DNA from: Oscillatoriales cyanobacterium RM2_1_1
GTDB lineage: Bacteria; Cyanobacteriota; Cyanobacteriia; Cyanobacteriales; Microcoleaceae
Reading direction: 5' to 3'
Length of the DNA: 32,508 nucleotides
Assembly (NCBI GenBank): GCA_012033335.1
Contig: JAAURB010000062.1
Span: 1 to 32,508, forward strand
Made by a program: the position numbers and the translations under genes. Positions within the stretch are counted from its first letter, which is position 1. Each line of letters opens with the position of its first letter. Positions 3,149 through 32,508 of this stretch are shown piece after piece. The notes beneath the pieces were generated by a model. The model made no database searches. It worked only from the letters and a program-made list of their open reading frames with translations, and was not told the DNA's origin.

Positions 3149-4447
3149 ATGGGACGTTCATCCAATCATTCGGGGGGTTCAAATCCTGATCCAATTCAGG
3201 CCAAACTTGCAGCTCTAGAACAGGAACTGGAGCAAAAGTATGGATTTTCATCAACCCAAGCTCAAAACCAGAACCAAAATAATTCTCCTGATCCATCTGC
3301 GACTCCATCTCAGGGCCGCTCCCAAGGAGCCTCTAAAAATAAATCCCAGAACTTTAACGTCTCAATTGCCCGGTGGGTCGCCGCTATTCTCCTGCTCGGA
3401 GTTCCCCTGGGTGCTGGATTGATTTGGGTAGCCAACTTGCCCTATCCAATGGTCAGAAAGCCCGTCTCAAAAGTTGCACCACTATTGTTATTGCCCAGTT
3501 ATTTAAAGATGGATCGGGGCTATCGGGAAGCGATTAGATATACCGAACAATCGGATCAGCTGATTAATCAAGCCACTTCTCCGGCTGATATTGGTCTAGG
3601 GGCAGAAAAAGTTGAGTTGGCCCAGAACGCCCTCGATGATTTGCCAGTCTGGTTTCTGGGTTATCAACCCGAGTATTACTGTCGTTGGTTTGATTGTCAG
3701 TGGCGTTTTACCGTAGATGAATTTGAACAGGCCCGCAAAACAATTGGTCGATTAGAAGCCCAGGTTTTTCAAGAAAGCAACGCTCAAACCCAGCTCAACC
3801 AGATAGAACAGGAATTAACCCGGGCCAAACAGCAGTTTCAAATCGCTCCAGACTTGGCTGCCAAACAGCAAGCGATCGCCAGTTGGCAAACAGCCATTGA
3901 TCAATTAGCGGCAGTTCCGCGAGAAACCCTGGCTGGAACCCTGGCGGAACAACAACTCAAAACGAACGAGCGGGATTTTACCAACCTGACCGGAGGAATC
4001 TCACAACGGGCAGGGGGCAACAATCTGATTGCAGCAGCGATGCAATTTGCCATGCAAGCCGCTCAAACCTCGCAAAATCCGCCCCATTCCGCCCTGCAGT
4101 GGCAACAGATTAAGACCTTGTGGCAGGAGGCGATTGATCGATTGAAGCAGGTTCAGGCAGATAATCCTGCCTATCTGGAGGCCCAAAAGAAGCTAGCTGA
4201 ATATCAAGCCAACCTGGGAACCGTCCAGACCCGACTACAGATGGAGCAAGAGGCTGCGGATGCCCTACAATCCGCCAAAGGTGACATTGCCGATCTACAG
4301 CGATTTACGGAGACTGAGTCTAGTAACCTGGGGGAGTACAATCGTAAGCTGCGACAGATTATGAATCAGCTCGAAACTATTCAACCGGGAACAACCGCCT
4401 ATGGAGAGGCTCAGCAATTGCTTCAGTTTGCTCGTAAGCGCCTATAG
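3149..4447 (+). CDS. Membrane-anchored coiled-coil protein of unknown function
   Basis: 432 aa, not assigned to a named family. Residues 1-70 are polar and Gln/Asn/Ser-rich, with a short coiled coil at about 15-30. One transmembrane segment lies at about 75-96 (WVAAILLLGVPLGAGLIW). A conserved-looking domain follows, with the aromatic and Cys-rich patch GYQPEYYCRWFDCQWRFTVD at about 170-190. The rest (about 190-430) is Gln/Glu/Ala-rich helix, probably long coiled coil or TPR-like, ending FARKRL. The topology suggests a cytoplasmic N-terminus with the helical domain outside the cytoplasm, or the reverse; the sequence does not decide. I believe similar proteins occur in other cyanobacteria, but I know of no function. 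It stands alone between the TnpB relic and hli, and its leader carries the 12-bp tandem duplication. Confidence 0.8.
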   Translation: MGRSSNHSGGSNPDPIQAKLAALEQELEQKYGFSSTQAQNQNQNNSPDPSATPSQGRSQGASKNKSQNFNVSIARWVAAILLLGVPLGAGLIWVANLPYPMVRKPVSKVAPLLLLPSYLKMDRGYREAIRYTEQSDQLINQATSPADIGLGAEKVELAQNALDDLPVWFLGYQPEYYCRWFDCQWRFTVDEFEQARKTIGRLEAQVFQESNAQTQLNQIEQELTRAKQQFQIAPDLAAKQQAIASWQTAIDQLAAVPRETLAGTLAEQQLKTNERDFTNLTGGISQRAGGNNLIAAAMQFAMQAAQTSQNPPHSALQWQQIKTLWQEAIDRLKQVQADNPAYLEAQKKLAEYQANLGTVQTRLQMEQEAADALQSAKGDIADLQRFTETESSNLGEYNRKLRQIMNQLETIQPGTTAYGEAQQLLQFARKRL

Positions 4448-14207: not shown

Positions 14208-14233
14208 TTCACTCCATTAATTCACTCCATTAG
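14208..14233. repeat. 13-bp tandem duplication at a gene end
   Basis: TTCACTCCATTAA is followed directly by TTCACTCCATTAG. The second unit covers the stop codon of the formamidase-family gene. Confidence 0.9.
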
Positions 14234-15311
14234 AAAACTAAATCCCTGGGGAAAATTGACTTAGAAATCATACCATGAACCCCGGTTTGAGGGCTATTAA
14301 CCGTTTGGGTGATGTGAAAGTTGGCCGCGATAGAACAGAGAGCATAAGCCTCCGCTGAACTACAGGGAATCACCTGTTCTAAAAATTGCATCATCTTACT
14401 CAAGGCTGATGCAAAAGCCCCATCCAGGGTTTCACCAAAGCCCATAACAACAATATTTTGCGGGGTCTCGGCAATGGGAGGGTCATAGCAAAAGTTTTTG
14501 TGGAGCAGGAGTTGAATGGTTCCATTCATTGACGTTTCAATGGCGGTACCATTCACCTCTCCTTCCCCCTGAGCGGAATGCCCGTCACCAATTGAAAATA
14601 AAGCCCCCTGCACAAAAATTGGCAGAAACAGTCGGGAACCGGGTCGTAGTTCAGGATTGTCTAGATTGCCGCCATAGACTCCAGGGGGAATCGAAGAACG
14701 AGCGGGTTCGTCCGTGGCAACCCCCAGAATGCCAAAAAAGGATGGAGGGGAATTTGAACTCCTGAACCGGGGGGAAATTCTGCCTGGTTGTTGACTAAAT
14801 CGAGGGGAATAAACCGCAATTCGGGTTCTGAAAATTGTTTAGAGAAGCTACCCCAACCGGGACGAATGGCATTAAAGCCCATGGCCAGACGGGGAGAAGC
14901 CGCTTCTATCCGCACCTCCAGGGTATCTCCCGGTTGGGCATCTCGAAGATAAATTGGCCCCGTCAATAAATGAGGCCCGGAACTAATCCTGCGGTCAGAA
15001 GGAAGCTGCTGACAGATCTCAATCAATTCTGGAGTCATAAAGGCAGCGGGGGCCTGATCGTAAATTCTAAAGCCGGTATAGGTTTCAACCTCAATGCGAT
15101 CGCCCGAATCTACCACTAAAGCAGGCTCTAGTTCAGAAGAAAATCCACCCAAATGAACCGTTTTACAGGTTGCCTTGAGGCTGATCTCTGAGCTGACCTT
15201 TGAATTGATATTTGAATTTGCCTTTAGATTGATCTTTGAATTTATTTTGAAATTATGCTGATTCACTAGAATACTGTCGCAAGGGGCGTATAGAATGCAA
15301 AAAGGGTACAA
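14230..15311 (-). pseudogene. Acetamidase/formamidase-family gene interrupted by one frameshift
   Basis: The 5' part (15311-14734) encodes VHLGGFSSELEPALVVDSGD, YLRDAQPGDTLEVRIEA and GFNAIRPGWGSF. The 3' part, in another frame, encodes VYGGNLDNPELRPGSRLFLP, then GALFSIGDGHSAQGEGEVNG and the C-terminus. These join as a normal FmdA-like amidase (formamide or acetamide to ammonia plus acid) if one T is added to the T6 run, in the gene's sense, at 14734-14739, giving HPFFGILGVATDEPARSS. No other lesion is visible, so it is either a very recent mutation or a sequencing error. The start is uncertain: the upstream frame has no ATG, only TTG 15309-15311 and a GTG at 15264-15266. It runs through a Lys/Asn/Ser-rich segment made of imperfect repeats (KINSKINLKA, ISLKAT) before the conserved domain. 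Confidence 0.82.
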
Positions 15312-21707: not shown

Positions 21708-22013
21708 CTATCGTTTTGGTTTGGTATCGATACTGACTGCACCCCCGTTAACGATTGTTTGACAGGCCAAGCGATAGGTATCGGGCAGCTTGCGTAGAAT
21801 TTTTTTCTCAGCTTCAGTCCGGGGCGAGAGGTTATTCATCCCCTCCACGACCTCAACAATACAGGTTCCACACTGACCATAGCCGCCACAGTTCATCATC
21901 TTGCCCATGAAGGTATAGAGATCGATCTGGTTTTCTAGAGCCTTAATTCTCAGGTTGGCTCCGTCAGCGGCGATCACTTCCTTTCCTTCTTTGACAAACT
22001 TGATATTAGCCAT
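21708..22013 (-). CDS. 2Fe-2S ferredoxin
   Basis: 101 aa, plant/adrenodoxin-type fold. Cysteine ligands appear in [20 protein letters not shown] plus a fourth Cys in [11 protein letters not shown] near the C-terminus. The motif with a [10 protein letters not shown] core is typical of a conserved cyanobacterial ferredoxin distinct from photosynthetic PetF, which has CRAGACSTC. It is a soluble one-electron carrier; the partner is unknown. It lies 151 bp after the nfu gene and beyond nfu's terminator, so it probably has its own promoter. AGGAA lies about 10 bases before the start. Its proximity to an iron-sulfur scaffold gene is suggestive but not proof of a shared role. Confidence 0.92.
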
Positions 22014-22119
22014 GGGGTTACGTTCCTAAATCAGGTTTAACAAGTTCATAGCTTGTTAATGAATCATTACAAAATCTTAACGCGATATGGAACCCCTATC
22101 TAACGCTATCAGGGATTCT

Positions 22120-22145
22120 AAAAAAACCCCCTTATCAAAAGGGGG
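22120..22145 (-). terminator. Intrinsic terminator downstream of nfu
   Basis: On the minus strand CCCCCTT, loop TTGAT, AAGGGGG is followed by seven Ts (22120-22126). It lies 20 bp beyond the nfu stop codon and probably ends a kaiC-nfu transcript. Confidence 0.92.
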
Positions 22146-22164
22146 CAGCGCTATCAGGGGAACT

Positions 22165-22404
22165 CTAAGCCACTGCTGCAACTTCAGCAATTTCAGGAAT
22201 CCGCTCCCGCAGACGGCGTTCAATGCCCATTTTTAAGGTCATGGTAGAGCTGGGGCAAGATCCGCAGGCACCTTGAAGACGCAGTCGAACAACAGGGCCA
22301 TCTAGCTCAACCACTTCAACATTGCCACCATCTGCCATTAAATAGGGGCGCAACTCATCTAAAACGGTCTCAACATTCTCAGGCGTTAATGCCAATGTAC
22401 TCAT
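22165..22404 (-). CDS. nfu: NifU-like iron-sulfur scaffold protein (Nfu)
   Basis: 79 aa, a stand-alone NifU C-terminal domain. [20 protein letters not shown] and [12 protein letters not shown] lead to the Fe-S binding motif [20 protein letters not shown], with CxxC cysteines that hold a transient cluster between two subunits. In cyanobacteria this protein is the main scaffold for passing clusters to apoproteins such as photosystem I. The start is the ATG at 22402-22404, with GGAGG eight bases upstream; an in-frame TTG five codons earlier would put that site inside the gene. It lies 74 bp after kaiC on the same strand with no terminator between, so read-through from kaiC is likely. Confidence 0.95.
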
Positions 22405-22478
22405 GGGTTCACCCTCCAAACGGATTTAGTGCAATCACTTTAGATCCTAGCGTTTCACCAGGTATTTGTACCAACAAG

Positions 22479-24032
22479 TTAGTCGTCTTCGGTTTGTACC
22501 CCCTGAATAATTCGAGAGAGCTGATTTTTTTCATTAACTGAAATTCGGGTAGGGGAGCCGCTGATAATCCGTTCATAGTCCCGAAAGGAGTCAGTAATAT
22601 CTGGGCCATTTGACGTGATGGTATACTCCCGAATTCCTTTGTCATGCCAGGAACCCCGCATTTTGAAGACATTGAGGGCGCGGGACATTTCTCCGCGAAT
22701 TTCTACATATTGCAGCATCAAAATAGTATCGGTAATCGTAGAGATATGGGAGTCTGTGATGGAATGGGATCCCATAAATTGATCCGTGGTATTGGTAAAG
22801 AAACCGGTAATTTCTTCCTGCTTCGCATACCCCGTTACCCCAATCACAAACTGCCGAAACGCATTATTGCTCACCCCTCGAGCCAGGGCAGACAGGGAAT
22901 CAATCGCAATTCGCGCTGGCTTGAACTCAGAAATCTCTGACTTGATAATTTGCAGATGATCTTCTAATCCAGCGGACTCCGGATAGGTACAGAGGATCTT
23001 TAGCAACCCTTTTTGCTCCATTCCCTCAAAATCAATCCCCCAGGAATTGGCATTGCGTAACAGTTGGGCCCGGGACTCTTCATAGGCAAACAGAATGGCC
23101 CGCTCACCATTGCGGCAGGCATTATCTAGAAAAATACTGACCAGTAGAGTTTTCCCGGTTCCTGTAGCTCCTGTGGCCAAAATAATTGAATCTTTAAAAA
23201 ATCCACCGCCACACATCTGATCGAGGACTTGATTGCCCGATGACACCCGAACATTTGAAGAGCGCTGGGTCAGTCGCATGGCCCCCAGAGGAAAGATATT
23301 AATCCCATGATCCGTAATGGTGAATGGGTATTCCCCTTTCATGTGGGTTGTACCCCGTAGCTTGAGAATTTCTATGGTGCGCCGCCGACGTTCCCCTTCC
23401 AGAACGTTCCGCACGATCATCACATTATCTGAAACAAATTCCTCTACCCCAAACCGGGCTACCGGGCCATATTCCGCCTCTCGTTCTGTGGTCATAATAG
23501 TGGTTGCTCCCATTTGTTTGAGCCGGGCCACTAACCGAAAAATTTCCCGACGAACGACTCCGGCAGCATCGTACTGTTGAAAAACCGCTGTTACGGAGTC
23601 AATGGAGACTCGCTTGGCTTTGTATTTACGCAGGGCGTATTGAATCCGCTCAATCAGGGCGGAGAGATCAAAGTTGCCGACAACATCCTGTCCTTCTGGA
23701 TCAGGGGAAGCATCCAGAATAAAGAGCTTGCCCTGGTCGATCAGCTCCTGTAAATCCCAATTGAAACTCGAAGCGTTCTTGATAATATCGCTGGGTGATT
23801 CTTCAAACGTAACAAAGATTCCAGACTCATCAAAACATTTGATACCGTTGTAGAGAAATTGAGTTGCAAATAGGGTCTTCCCGGTTCCTGAAGTTCCACT
23901 GACTAAAGTTGCACGCCCTATTGGCATTCCACCATGGCTAATATCGTCAAATCCTTCAATCAGGGTGCGAATCTTTTGGACGCTGGTCAGCTTTCGCTTG
24001 CTCTTCGATGCTTCTGGGCTCGTTTCACTCAT
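22479..24032 (-). CDS. kaiC: Circadian clock ATPase/autokinase KaiC
   Basis: 517 aa with two RecA-like domains. CI has Walker A GTSGTGKT (46-53) and catalytic Glu77-Glu78 in TFEESP. CII has Walker A GATGTGKT (288-295), Glu318 in YEES, and the phosphorylation pair Ser431-Thr432 in SHISTITDT. These positions are numerically identical to the Synechococcus elongatus protein. The C-terminal A-loop and tail (ISGSPTRISVNEKNQLSRII) that KaiA binds is intact. The KaiC hexamer cycles through phosphorylation states with KaiA and KaiB to set a 24-hour rhythm of gene expression. kaiB lies 463 bp upstream instead of being closely coupled, and repeat A4 sits between them. nfu follows 74 bp downstream. Confidence 0.98.
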   Translation of the reverse strand: MSETSPEASKSKRKLTSVQKIRTLIEGFDDISHGGMPIGRATLVSGTSGTGKTLFATQFLYNGIKCFDESGIFVTFEESPSDIIKNASSFNWDLQELIDQGKLFILDASPDPEGQDVVGNFDLSALIERIQYALRKYKAKRVSIDSVTAVFQQYDAAGVVRREIFRLVARLKQMGATTIMTTEREAEYGPVARFGVEEFVSDNVMIVRNVLEGERRRRTIEILKLRGTTHMKGEYPFTITDHGINIFPLGAMRLTQRSSNVRVSSGNQVLDQMCGGGFFKDSIILATGATGTGKTLLVSIFLDNACRNGERAILFAYEESRAQLLRNANSWGIDFEGMEQKGLLKILCTYPESAGLEDHLQIIKSEISEFKPARIAIDSLSALARGVSNNAFRQFVIGVTGYAKQEEITGFFTNTTDQFMGSHSITDSHISTITDTILMLQYVEIRGEMSRALNVFKMRGSWHDKGIREYTITSNGPDITDSFRDYERIISGSPTRISVNEKNQLSRIIQGVQTEDD

Positions 24033-24112
24033 AACTCGAGATCTTCACTAATTCACCGGGATCAAACTTTGAATACAAATTGCAAACCCAAACTTTAAAC
24101 TCAAACTTTAGA

Positions 24113-24229
24113 TAAGCAGGTGGTTGTGATTAATCGTTAAATGGCAGGGGTATGGGGCTTCGTCCCAGGAAGAGACATTGACCCCTTCACCCCCCATCAA
24201 TCTTCTAATTAATTGCGTCAAGCTACTTA
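24113..24229 (+). repeat. Dispersed hairpin repeat, family A, copy 4, between kaiB and kaiC
   Basis: Begins TAAGCAGGTGGTTGTGATTA and ends AATTGCGTCAAGCTACTTA. The first hairpin GGGGCTTCGTCCC has a mismatch and the second (GAGACATTGACCCC) is degenerate. It lies about 80 bp upstream of the kaiC start codon, oriented opposite to kaiBC. Confidence 0.87.
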
Positions 24230-24438
24230 TGAACTTTAGAGATGAACCTGAGGGGGTATCTGAGCAGTCGGATTGGTTAGCCGAACGATTGGGCGACACA
24301 GCTCAAACCCTCTGGGGTTTCTTGTGGGTTCGGCTTGTCTGCGCCGCTGGATAATCACTTATAAAACCCTATTTTATCCTCGGAGTTTTGTTTGCTTGGC
24401 TGTTTGAGATTCGTTTTGAACACGCTCTAATTAACTAA
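24229..24438 (+). pseudogene. Possible degraded small membrane-protein gene antisense in the kaiB-kaiC gap
   Basis: An ATG overlapping the right end of repeat A4 opens a frame of 41 codons, MNFRDEPEGVSEQSDWLAER then LGDTAQTLWGFLWVRLVCAA. It ends at TAA (24352-24354). The same frame continues for 27 codons with a membrane-like segment, PYFILGVLFAWLFEIRFEHA, to TAA at 24436-24438. One in-frame stop in an otherwise protein-like 69-codon frame suggests a small gene broken by a stop. I recognise no family, and a chance frame is quite possible. Confidence 0.25.
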
Positions 24439-24495
24439 TTAAACATTCTCTCACCCTTACTCCTCCAAATTAATTATTATAGGTTAAAGGCTGCC

Positions 24496-24807
24496 CTATA
24501 GGCTAAATCGATCATCCTCTAACTCTTCATACAACAGGTCTAGGCCAATCAAAACCTTTTCCCGATCAGACAGATCCCCAATAATTTTGCGGACGGGGGG
24601 CGGTAGAATTTTTGAGAGAGTAGGAGTGGCAAGAATCTTATCTTCTTCTGCCAACTGTGGGTTTTTCAAAACGTCAATCACTTTCAGGGCATAGACCCCT
24701 TGAAATTCTTGCTCTAGAATATCCTTCAATGTTCGTAGGGCCCGCACCGAGTTTGGAGTGTTGCCCGCCACATAGAGCTTGAGAATATAGGTTTTTTGAG
24801 GAGTCAT
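24496..24807 (-). CDS. kaiB: Circadian clock protein KaiB
   Basis: 103 aa, the normal size. [40 protein letters not shown] and [20 protein letters not shown] are the conserved KaiB sequence, ending in the acidic tail YEELEDDRF. KaiB is a fold-switching, thioredoxin-like protein that binds the CI ring of phosphorylated KaiC, sequesters KaiA and drives dephosphorylation. The gene normally sits between kaiA and kaiC. Here the upstream neighbour is an EVE-domain gene 81 bp away and kaiA is absent from the locus, while a 463-bp gap with repeat A4 separates it from kaiC. Confidence 0.97.
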
Positions 24808-24888
24808 ATTAGTTGATCCATCAGCGGTGAGTTTGAGACCTTATGCATCAGAATTAAGTACATCAGAATTGAGAGATCACGATTGAGA

Positions 24889-25374
24889 TCAGGGGATAGG
24901 ATCATGAGTCTGAAGATCAGGTCTTTGGCTCATTGCCATAATCTTACTGGCAATATCCGGAGGTACGGCCATGACCGAGAGACGATTGCCTCGCCGTACC
25001 AGTAATAAGTCATCAGCCGTGAAAACTTGTTTCAGGCGGGCCAAAGTGACGATAGTCGAAAACTGCTCAACAAACTCGACTCGAACAGTCTGCCATCGAA
25101 CCTCAGCAGGGGTTGATCTAGGATCGTAATATTGACTTTCTCGATCAAACTGAGTTGGATCATCTAAATTGATCTCAACTACTCGCATCAACCCCACGAT
25201 TCCAGGGTCTTTGGTATTGGAATGGTAAAAAAAAGCCAGATTTCCGACGGTCATCTGTCGCAGGAAATTTCGGGCCTGATAGTTGCGAACCCCATCCCAG
25301 AGGGTCGTGCGATCGCGGGCCAGATTCTCGATGCTATAGACTGTCGGTTCTGACTTCATTAACCAATAATTCAT
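24889..25374 (-). CDS. EVE domain-containing protein
   Basis: 161 aa from the ATG at 25372-25374; a GTG one codon upstream is possible. It is a single EVE (PUA-like/YTH-related) domain over the whole length: YWLMKSEPTVYSIENL, then LWDGVRNYQARNFLRQMTVG, LAFFYHSNTKDPGIVGLMRV, and the C-terminal VRRGNRLSVMAV. It resembles bacterial homologues of human thymocyte nuclear protein 1. EVE domains bind modified bases in DNA or RNA. In bacteria they occur with restriction systems or alone with housekeeping roles, perhaps in tRNA or RNA modification. It follows the 111-aa gene with no gap (the upstream stop codon is at 25378-25380), so it is translationally coupled to it, and kaiB follows 81 bp downstream. 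Confidence 0.92.
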   Translation of the reverse strand: MNYWLMKSEPTVYSIENLARDRTTLWDGVRNYQARNFLRQMTVGNLAFFYHSNTKDPGIVGLMRVVEINLDDPTQFDRESQYYDPRSTPAEVRWQTVRVEFVEQFSTIVTLARLKQVFTADDLLLVRRGNRLSVMAVPPDIASKIMAMSQRPDLQTHDPIP

Positions 25375-25377
25375 CAC

Positions 25378-25713
25378 CTAGCAATCTAAACGGTTGATGT
25401 CATCCAACGGGTCTGCTACCCCCAAAGCCAGATCCGGTGGTAAGTCAAATTGCTCCCGAATTTTTTGTTCGGCTCCATGGGGATCTTGATAAATCAATTC
25501 CAAAAGTGCCTCAGGAGAAAGCCCCAGGGGTGAAGCATAGAAACTGATTTCATCAAAAATCCGTTGCTTGGACTGACGCAGATATAGACTCAAGCAGTGG
25601 TTGGCCTGAACGGAATGTTGCCGCTGGAACCGAAAAAAACTTAAGGCCGCCAGCAATCGATCCTCATAGGGCCTGAGGGGTTGGATCTCAATGGATTGGG
25701 GTCGCCTCAGCAT
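25378..25713 (-). CDS. Conserved-looking cyanobacterial protein of unknown function
   Basis: 111 aa, soluble and mostly helical, with no signal or membrane segment and no known motif. It begins RPQSIEIQPLRPYEDRLLAA, has a central QANHCLSLYLRQSKQRIFDE helix and an acidic end, ADPLDDINRLDC. Its ATG overlaps the end of the CSP41-like epimerase gene by 7 bp and its stop abuts the EVE gene, so all three are probably made from one transcript. That placement suggests a link to RNA or nucleotide-sugar metabolism, but no function can be assigned. Confidence 0.78.
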   Translation of the reverse strand: MLRRPQSIEIQPLRPYEDRLLAALSFFRFQRQHSVQANHCLSLYLRQSKQRIFDEISFYASPLGLSPEALLELIYQDPHGAEQKIREQFDLPPDLALGVADPLDDINRLDC

Positions 25714-26645
25714 AGGGCCGCCAGGATTTCATCATCCGTAGAAAAATCTACTTGCACCTTAACCCTTCCCGCAGCCTGATAGTCATTTTGAAAAGAATCT
25801 CTTAATCCAGCAATCAGGTCGTAATGAGGTTGCCAATCCAGATCAGTTTTGGCTTTATGAATCTCCGCAAAAAAGTGCTGCACCCTCATGGGAAACGCTT
25901 TGCGACTGCCAAAGTCAAATTTTTTGGGGTTGTAATGGACTAATTTCAGCTCCTCTGGAGACTGACCGGCGGCCACCGCACAGGCCCGAGCTAAGCCATC
26001 AAAGGTGACATAGCGATCGCCAGACACATTATAGATTTCTCGAATTGCCTTCGGATTGCCTAACACTGCCGCCATCGCTTGTGCTAAATCTTCAACATGG
26101 CCCAACTGGGTAATCGACATCCCATCCCCCGGAATCGGAATTGGGCGATGGGCCACAATCCGATCAAAAAACCAGGATTCTAAGGGGTTGTAGTTCAACG
26201 GGCCATAAATATAGGTGGGACGAATCGATGTCCAGGGTAAATTCTGGGCCTCCAGATAGGTTTCGGTTTCATGTTTGCCGATATGGCGGCTTTTGGGATC
26301 TATCGCGTCCCCTTCAACGTGGGGCATCTGATCTGATTTTGCATACACTCCGGCAGAGCTCATATAGATAAAGTGCTGTACCCGATCTTTGAACAAATCC
26401 GCCAGCATTTGCGTATCACTAAGCTGACGACCATTATTATCAAAAATTGCATCAAACTGCTCAGAGGCCAGTTGGGCTTGAATCTGTTCAGGATTAGTGC
26501 GATCGCCATGGATTTGTTGGATTCCAGCGAGGGGTGGGGGTTGATTGCCGCGATTGAATAGGACTACGGTGTGGCCCTGTTCGACCAAAAGCTTGGTGAG
26601 ATAAACCCCGATGAATCGGGTTCCGCCCATGATTAAAATTCGCAT
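25707..26645 (-). CDS. NAD-dependent epimerase/dehydratase family protein, CSP41-like
   Basis: 312 aa extended short-chain dehydrogenase. The nucleotide-binding motif is MRILIMGGTRFIG at the N-terminus. Further on come YMSSAGVY, then HIGKHETETYLEAQNLPWTS, IRPTYIYGPLNYNPLESWFF, and a C-terminal substrate domain with RKAFPMRVQHFFAEIHKAKT. The usual YxxxK catalytic pair is altered: the Tyr position falls in RHIGK. This pattern and the RPTYIYGP/ESWFFDR stretch are characteristic of chloroplast CSP41b and its cyanobacterial relatives, which bind and cleave stem-loop RNA and help stabilise ribosomal and plastid transcripts. True sugar-nucleotide epimerase activity is less likely. It is the first gene of the overlapping epimerase-unknown-EVE set. 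Confidence 0.88.
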   Translation of the reverse strand: MRILIMGGTRFIGVYLTKLLVEQGHTVVLFNRGNQPPPLAGIQQIHGDRTNPEQIQAQLASEQFDAIFDNNGRQLSDTQMLADLFKDRVQHFIYMSSAGVYAKSDQMPHVEGDAIDPKSRHIGKHETETYLEAQNLPWTSIRPTYIYGPLNYNPLESWFFDRIVAHRPIPIPGDGMSITQLGHVEDLAQAMAAVLGNPKAIREIYNVSGDRYVTFDGLARACAVAAGQSPEELKLVHYNPKKFDFGSRKAFPMRVQHFFAEIHKAKTDLDWQPHYDLIAGLRDSFQNDYQAAGRVKVQVDFSTDDEILAALC

Positions 26646-32433: not shown

Positions 32434-32447
32434 AATATTTTGATAGA

Positions 32448-32508
32448 TAAGTAGATGGTTGTAATTAATTATCAAATAGAAGGGGGGTCTGGGGCTTTGC
32501 CCCAGGAA
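32448..32508 (+). repeat. Dispersed hairpin repeat, family A, copy 5, cut by the window end
   Basis: Begins TAAGTAGATGGTTGTAATTA and runs through CAAATAGAAGGGGGGTCTGG into the first hairpin GGGGCTTTGCCCC and CAGGAA, where the window stops. The left half matches the other copies closely. Confidence 0.85.

Follow-up and report, generated by a model that had tools for sequence, protein, structure and literature searches.

A worn copy of a dispersed palindromic repeat in the kaiB-kaiC spacer of Oscillatoriales cyanobacterium RM2_1_1

The kaiB and kaiC genes of Oscillatoriales cyanobacterium RM2_1_1 are separated by a spacer of 463 bp, one quarter of which is occupied by a copy of a dispersed repeat, and the locus raises the question of whether this DNA influences the expression of kaiC or is a passenger in a stretch that accepts insertions. 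The locus was analysed in a window of 32,508 nucleotides (assembly GCA_012033335.1, contig JAAURB010000062.1, positions 1 to 32,508), and coordinates not assigned to another locus or contig are those of the window. An initial annotation, made from the sequence alone, had suggested that the insertion could uncouple kaiC from kaiB transcription, or bring a new promoter or a folded leader to kaiC.

The kai locus and its spacer

Both genes are on the minus strand with kaiB directly upstream of kaiC, and the spacer between them spans 24033-24495 (Table 1). The gene coordinates agree with the 463-bp separation given in the initial annotation, and the 117-bp antisense repeat that it named A4 is found where it was placed, opposite in direction to the kai genes and 80 bp from kaiC. 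Without the repeat the spacer measures 346 bp. No second copy of kaiC was found in the genome at E≤1e-10. The order and common strand of kaiB and kaiC are the same as in the kaiBC operon of Synechococcus elongatus PCC 7942 as described in PMC5520375; relative to that description, the window differs in having a long repeat-bearing spacer and a kaiA that is not adjacent. Elsewhere in the window, two adjacent minus-strand ORFs at 14230-15311 (216 and 127 aa), taken from the ORF list only, are maybe one broken gene.

Table 1. Features of the kai locus and its spacer, in window coordinates
Feature	Coordinates	Strand	Remarks
kaiC	22479-24032	-	517 aa, intact ORF; Pfam KaiC ATPase, E 3.5e-121
kaiC-proximal part of spacer	24033-24112	-	80 bp; alignable counterpart in relatives is an 18-nt match at most, E 0.064
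Doubtful version of kaiC-proximal motif, TAAAGTTTGAGTTTAAAG	24093-24110	-	-78 to -61 from kaiC
AACTTTAGA, possible target duplication, left copy	24104-24112		Abuts left edge of repeat
Worn copy of dispersed palindromic repeat (A4)	24113-24229	+	117 bp
AACTTTAGA, possible target duplication, right copy	24232-24240		2 nt right of repeat
Rest of spacer, kaiB side	24230-24495		266 bp; unique, no coding sign
kaiB	24496-24807	-	ORF, 103 aa; Pfam KaiB, E 1e-30
EVE-domain gene	24889-25377	-	81 bp upstream of kaiB, usual place of kaiA in relatives; Pfam EVE, E 2.6e-50

Approximately 210 bp of the remaining spacer had been described as protein-like but interrupted, a description that could not be confirmed, as there is no homologue and neither the stop-free run nor the codon score is gene-like. 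The longest stop-free run in 24230-24495 is 47 codons, compared with a shuffle mean of 58.4, and 80.5% of 1000 shuffles contain a run at least as long. At 0.081 bits per codon, the plus-strand reading is at the 95th percentile of shuffles, but fragments of real genes have their 5th percentile higher, at 0.110. It matches no Pfam or PHROG family at E≤5, and its four weak matches in 58 genomes, the window's own excluded (E 0.004-0.08), appear chance-like on reading. A frame on the minus strand scores higher (0.22 bits per codon), although its 69 codons include 4 stops. A gene relic in 24230-24435 was rejected on the lack of homologues, the codon score and the stop-free run on the one strand and on these stops on the other. 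A second dispersed family in 24230-24495 was also considered and rejected, as the genome contains only two other matches, both weak (E values of 0.014 and 0.099). None of the relatives' gaps aligns to the spacer, and a comparison with plasmid records gave no match.

A high-copy palindromic repeat family

The draft genome containing the window (5.18 Mb in 178 contigs, 98.9% complete) was searched for the ends of the repeat by pattern, allowing up to three mismatches. There are 88 left and 156 right ends, compared with 0 left and 0 right for the reversed patterns used as a control in the same genome. These counts, far above chance, bear out the dispersed family proposed in the initial annotation, of which the kaiBC copy is a member. 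With this copy as the query at least 42 matches are found in its own genome, and the other near-full copies are 82-88% identical to it, both values being for 40 of 265 candidates scored. There is no match at E≤1e-6 in any of 39 relatives (at most 22 candidates scored in each), such that the repeat is found in one of 40 genomes, the window's own.

An alignment of 31 copies, including four from the window and two from locus L011, yields a family consensus of ~120 bp, whose inverted ends are TAAGTAG/CTACTTA and which has two G+C-rich hairpins as well as inner AATTAATT blocks. The inverted ends form a mean of 5.9 of 7 Watson-Crick pairs over the 31 copies. The kaiBC copy has a left end that reads GCAG rather than GTAG, and its hairpins are worn, one retaining 4 of its 6 Watson-Crick pairs (family mean 4.7) and the other 4 of 7 (family mean 5.3).

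Thirty repeat loci were examined, 28 of them for gene context and 25 for flanking sequences. No consistent target duplication is seen in the flanks, with duplications of 2-3 bp judged by eye only. A flank word of at least 7 nt is shared in one of the 25 copies, the one in kaiBC (AACTTTAGA; Table 1), compared with 1.2% in shuffles. Direct duplications of 8-19 nt are present in the 50 nt to the right of the repeat in five of the 25 copies (L002, L005, L013, L017 and L018; 1.5% in shuffles), and short direct duplications are found to the left of the repeat in two of the 25 (3.3% in shuffles). The contig end at 32444-32508 falls inside a repeat copy, and several other contigs have copies within ~100 bases of an end; because copies are located at contig ends, the family seems to break assembly.

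All five copies in the window are in non-coding DNA, at a density of ~0.7 per kb when the non-coding share is calculated from a gene list hand-picked from the ORF list, at which a 346-bp gap would be expected to hold ~0.2 copies. Of the 28 copies sampled, including that of kaiBC, 16 lie between co-directional genes (nine with and seven against the gene direction), eight between divergent genes and none between convergent genes, with two at an edge and two under an ORF call. The kaiBC copy is not marked out among the others by its place. No empty site was found among 105 gaps, drawn from genomes that include no relative of the same genus, and the best match is 18 nt in length (E 0.064, plus strand). 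We infer the insertion event itself from membership of the family.

MITEs are short, non-coding, many-copy elements with terminal inverted repeats, a target-site duplication and a related autonomous transposon. The repeat resembles these in its size of ~120 bp, its inverted ends, its many copies and its lack of coding sign, but it differs in that target duplication is not consistent. A partner transposase was sought in the Y1 family, which gave no match. The term 'MITE-like' is a description of how the repeat looks.

GTAG-tagged palindromic repeats (REPs) and their head-head dimers have been reported in cyanobacteria among other organisms (PMC3733652), and the traits given there are an end tag, a 5-13 bp stem beside the tag, and a RAYT-type transposase as the hypothesised mobiliser. 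Like the REPs of that description, the repeat is short, high-copy and mostly intergenic, has GTAG near both outer ends (the consensus reads TAAGTAG inward from each) and has a conserved inner stretch. Unlike them, its tag-bearing ends have no fold of their own, the folding energies of five 33-nt ends being 0 to -0.4 kcal/mol and not lower than those of shuffles. A further difference is that PF01797, the Y1 (RAYT-type) transposase, has 0 matches in the draft genome (98.9% complete); the same search recovered it from five of the 14 known genomes used as a control. Because no Y1 transposase was found and the ends do not fold alone, we have not filed the repeat as a GTAG REP.

Spacer length and inserts in relatives

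Of 110 kai loci, four gave no gap (L048, L055, L086 and L130), and the 106 gaps from the remainder include 100 that are distinct; subtracting six identical gaps and that of the window leaves 99 others for comparison. These vary from 33 to 1397 bp with a median of 162 bp (quartiles 116.5-260 bp), and 4 are at least 463 bp, 14 are at least 346 bp and 15 are no longer than 100 bp. In the same family (25 loci) the median is 249 bp, with one gap of at least 463 bp and six of at least 346 bp. The premise that kaiBC is usually a tight dicistron is not supported in this group by such a median, or by the small proportion of gaps of 100 bp or less. The window's gap is long but not alone in its length. 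Equal spacing in relatives lacking the repeat had been named as evidence against the earlier interpretation, and gaps of this length do occur, in 4 of the 99, although no fewer than two of the four themselves contain inserts.

In G004, which belongs to another genus of the same family, the kaiB-kaiC gap is 640 bp and holds a different dispersed palindrome (L034, 1365-1503), with similar TAAGTAGGT ends and 42 matches in its own genome. The gap of L097 (Microcoleaceae UBA9251) is 630 bp and contains a relic of a TnpB-type protein at 3355-4000 (PF07282, E 5.3e-8). There are at least three different inserts in the kaiB-kaiC gap, across three genera or lineages; its spacing is not conserved in the group and it took inserts more than once. 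The insertion in the window looks ordinary because spacer length varies widely and because there are other inserts in related species.

We conclude that the kaiBC copy is probably a neutral passenger, an old and worn member of a high-copy palindromic repeat family, found in no relative searched, within a permissive and fast-changing stretch between kaiB and kaiC. The observations under this conclusion are the family membership and copy number of the repeat, its absence from the 39 relatives, the variable spacers and the unrelated inserts that other genomes have in this gap. In outline, a single copy would have landed in the permissive spacer and then worn down, presumably with no role of its own, and the insertion would leave in place the 80 bp adjoining the kaiC start, so that kaiC may still be transcribed by read-through from upstream, from a site within those 80 bp, or both. 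Two observations stand against a neutral passenger: the gap is rather long (as long in only 4 of the 99 others and 1 of the 25 in the family), and the fold of the copy on the kai strand is mildly better than in shuffles (z -1.94).

Alternative explanations and the regulation of kaiC

It is possible, rather than probable, that kaiC has a regulatory site of its own (a promoter or a regulator-binding site) located 54-90 nt upstream of the ATG, old in part of the cyanobacteria, and that the repeat abuts a decayed version of it. The gap would then tolerate inserts because kaiB and kaiC are only loosely coupled, and a site of this kind can be accommodated with a repeat that is a neutral passenger. 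The gaps of g3 (the genus of Planktothrix PCC 11201) have TTTTGTGGTAAATGTAGCA in common, at -54 to -76 from kaiC. Used as a fixed 19-base query on the 106 gaps, with P values from 200 shuffles per gap, it matches at 18-19 of 19 positions in nine close loci, some of them from the same genomes. P≤0.005 is reached in seven of the other 97 gaps (L072, L084, L088, L099, L111, L116 and L120), at -61 to -90, where ~0.5 would be expected, and the motif is thereby seen again in some distantly related cyanobacteria, but 90 of the 97 miss this level, and L111 and L116 appear to be near-duplicates. An unseeded search of the 82 non-redundant gaps (of 106) recovers the same core with an LLR of 110, compared with 67-79 in six shuffled sets, although the search was run with 150 starts and the shuffled sets with 60. 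With a leave-one-out matrix 10 of the 82 gaps have P<0.01, but eight of these are chosen instances and the other two are close g3 relatives, and the nine gaps with P<0.05 among the 73 outside the chosen set have their matches scattered from -27 to -433. The motif also has no good -10 match on reading by eye.

Motifs similar to GTTTTRTGNTARATGTAGC are present 54-90 nt upstream of kaiC in loci L038-L041, L045, L046, L049, L050, L062, L072, L084, L088, L099, L111, L116 and L120. The same motif was sought upstream of kaiB and rejected there, as the matches (e.g. ATTTGTGTGAAATGTATCG) fall at the 3' end of kaiA in L040; these are taken to be coding because they can be read as HLCEMYR, as in the KaiA of the window genome.

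The presence of the motif in the window is doubtful, since the tests disagree. A broad matrix trained without this gap places the motif at -78 to -61 (P 0.006), separated from the repeat by 2 nt, but the fixed query (P 0.805) and the stricter leave-one-out matrix (P 0.32) both fail and place their best matches elsewhere in the gap than 24093-24110. Expression of kaiB1 and kaiC1 in Cyanothece 51142 is reported to be anti-phase (PMC5520375), which is in favour of separate control of kaiC, and the motif may bear on this behaviour as it is described there. In the open-licence literature we found no report of an internal or separate kaiC promoter. The sequence comparisons are thus consistent with the possibility that some lineages have an old regulatory site close to kaiC, which in the window would be decayed at best. 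The fuller proposal is doubtful: that in part of the filamentous cyanobacteria a conserved site (approximately GTTTTRTGNTARATGTAGC) 54-90 nt before kaiC drives kaiC apart from kaiB, that mobile DNA can land freely in the spacer, and that the repeat here lies 2 nt from a decayed version of the site.

The second alternative concerns the position of kaiA, which precedes kaiB in 75 of the 80 named loci. The five without it include two with no kaiB match and two with less than 1 kb of upstream DNA, the fifth being L062 (Planktothrix PCC 11201), in which 3.5 kb upstream of kaiB contains no kaiA. Among the 29 other relatives' loci, with up to 1.5 kb upstream, kaiA is seen in 17 and not seen in 10, and two have no kaiC match. 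The window genome has its kaiA on another contig, C49 (L150, G000:C49, 850-1806), among unrelated neighbours, none of which adjoins kaiA at 12 loci of relatives, and the region upstream of the window's kaiB (24808-25377) has an EVE-domain gene where kaiA is usual. The kai cluster of this genome is reshuffled. In a search of 15 picked relatives KaiA is present in 12, with no match in G011 and G022 (99-100% complete, five contigs each) or in G007 (83% complete). The g3 genomes G011 and G022 have both kaiB and kaiC despite having no KaiA match, and in two others of g3, G026 and G033, kaiA and kaiB are on different contigs.

It is unlikely that the long gap is a by-product of such a rearrangement, in which kaiA moved off, EVE DNA came to lie beside kaiB, and the spacer was remade at that time with the repeat as one trace. 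The location of kaiA on C49 and the EVE gene preceding kaiB, in contrast to the 75 named loci, are in favour of it, but kaiB and kaiC have kept their order and strand, longer gaps are found at loci with kaiA in place (L034, L083, L097 and L103), and the g3 genomes without kaiA beside kaiB have gaps of only 162-254 bp (L038, L041, L045 and L046).

Neither promoter-like nor terminator-like sites were detected on the kai strand in a scan of 24000-24950, which gives no support to the new promoter once suggested for kaiC. The opposite strand has one promoter-like and one terminator-like site, both inside kaiB (shuffle means of 1.5 and 1.0 respectively). Read as kai RNA, the repeat copy folds with a z score of -1.94, a value equalled or bettered by 7 of 200 shuffles; z is -0.51 for the opposite strand of the copy and -0.55 for the whole leader. 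Over the 31 copies there are 5 doubly changed pairs compared with 4.8 in shuffles, the covariation score is reached by 57 of 500 shuffles, and none of the nine pairs of a de novo consensus fold is compensated. The folded leader was dropped on the scores of the leader and the other strand and on pair changes that are as in shuffles. A search for RNA families in 22000-26000 gave a single match, below the gathering score, to NsiR1 (22 compared with 39 bits) at 22119-22172, outside the gap.

That the repeat acts on kaiC, either as a hairpin in the message altering its stability or kaiB-kaiC read-through, or by supplying a start site, is unlikely: its place 80 bp before kaiC and its fold on the kai strand are in favour, but promoter-like and terminator-like sites are lacking on that strand, the hairpins are worn, the whole leader folds much as shuffles do, and the pairs are not compensated. 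An effect of the repeat on kaiC expression is not supported.

As posed, the observation matters little, involving as it does a common repeat, a single copy and a variable spacer. If the motif before kaiC is real, the idea of a single kaiBC message would fail for part of the filamentous cyanobacteria, and the reported differences in timing between kaiB and kaiC would be directly testable.
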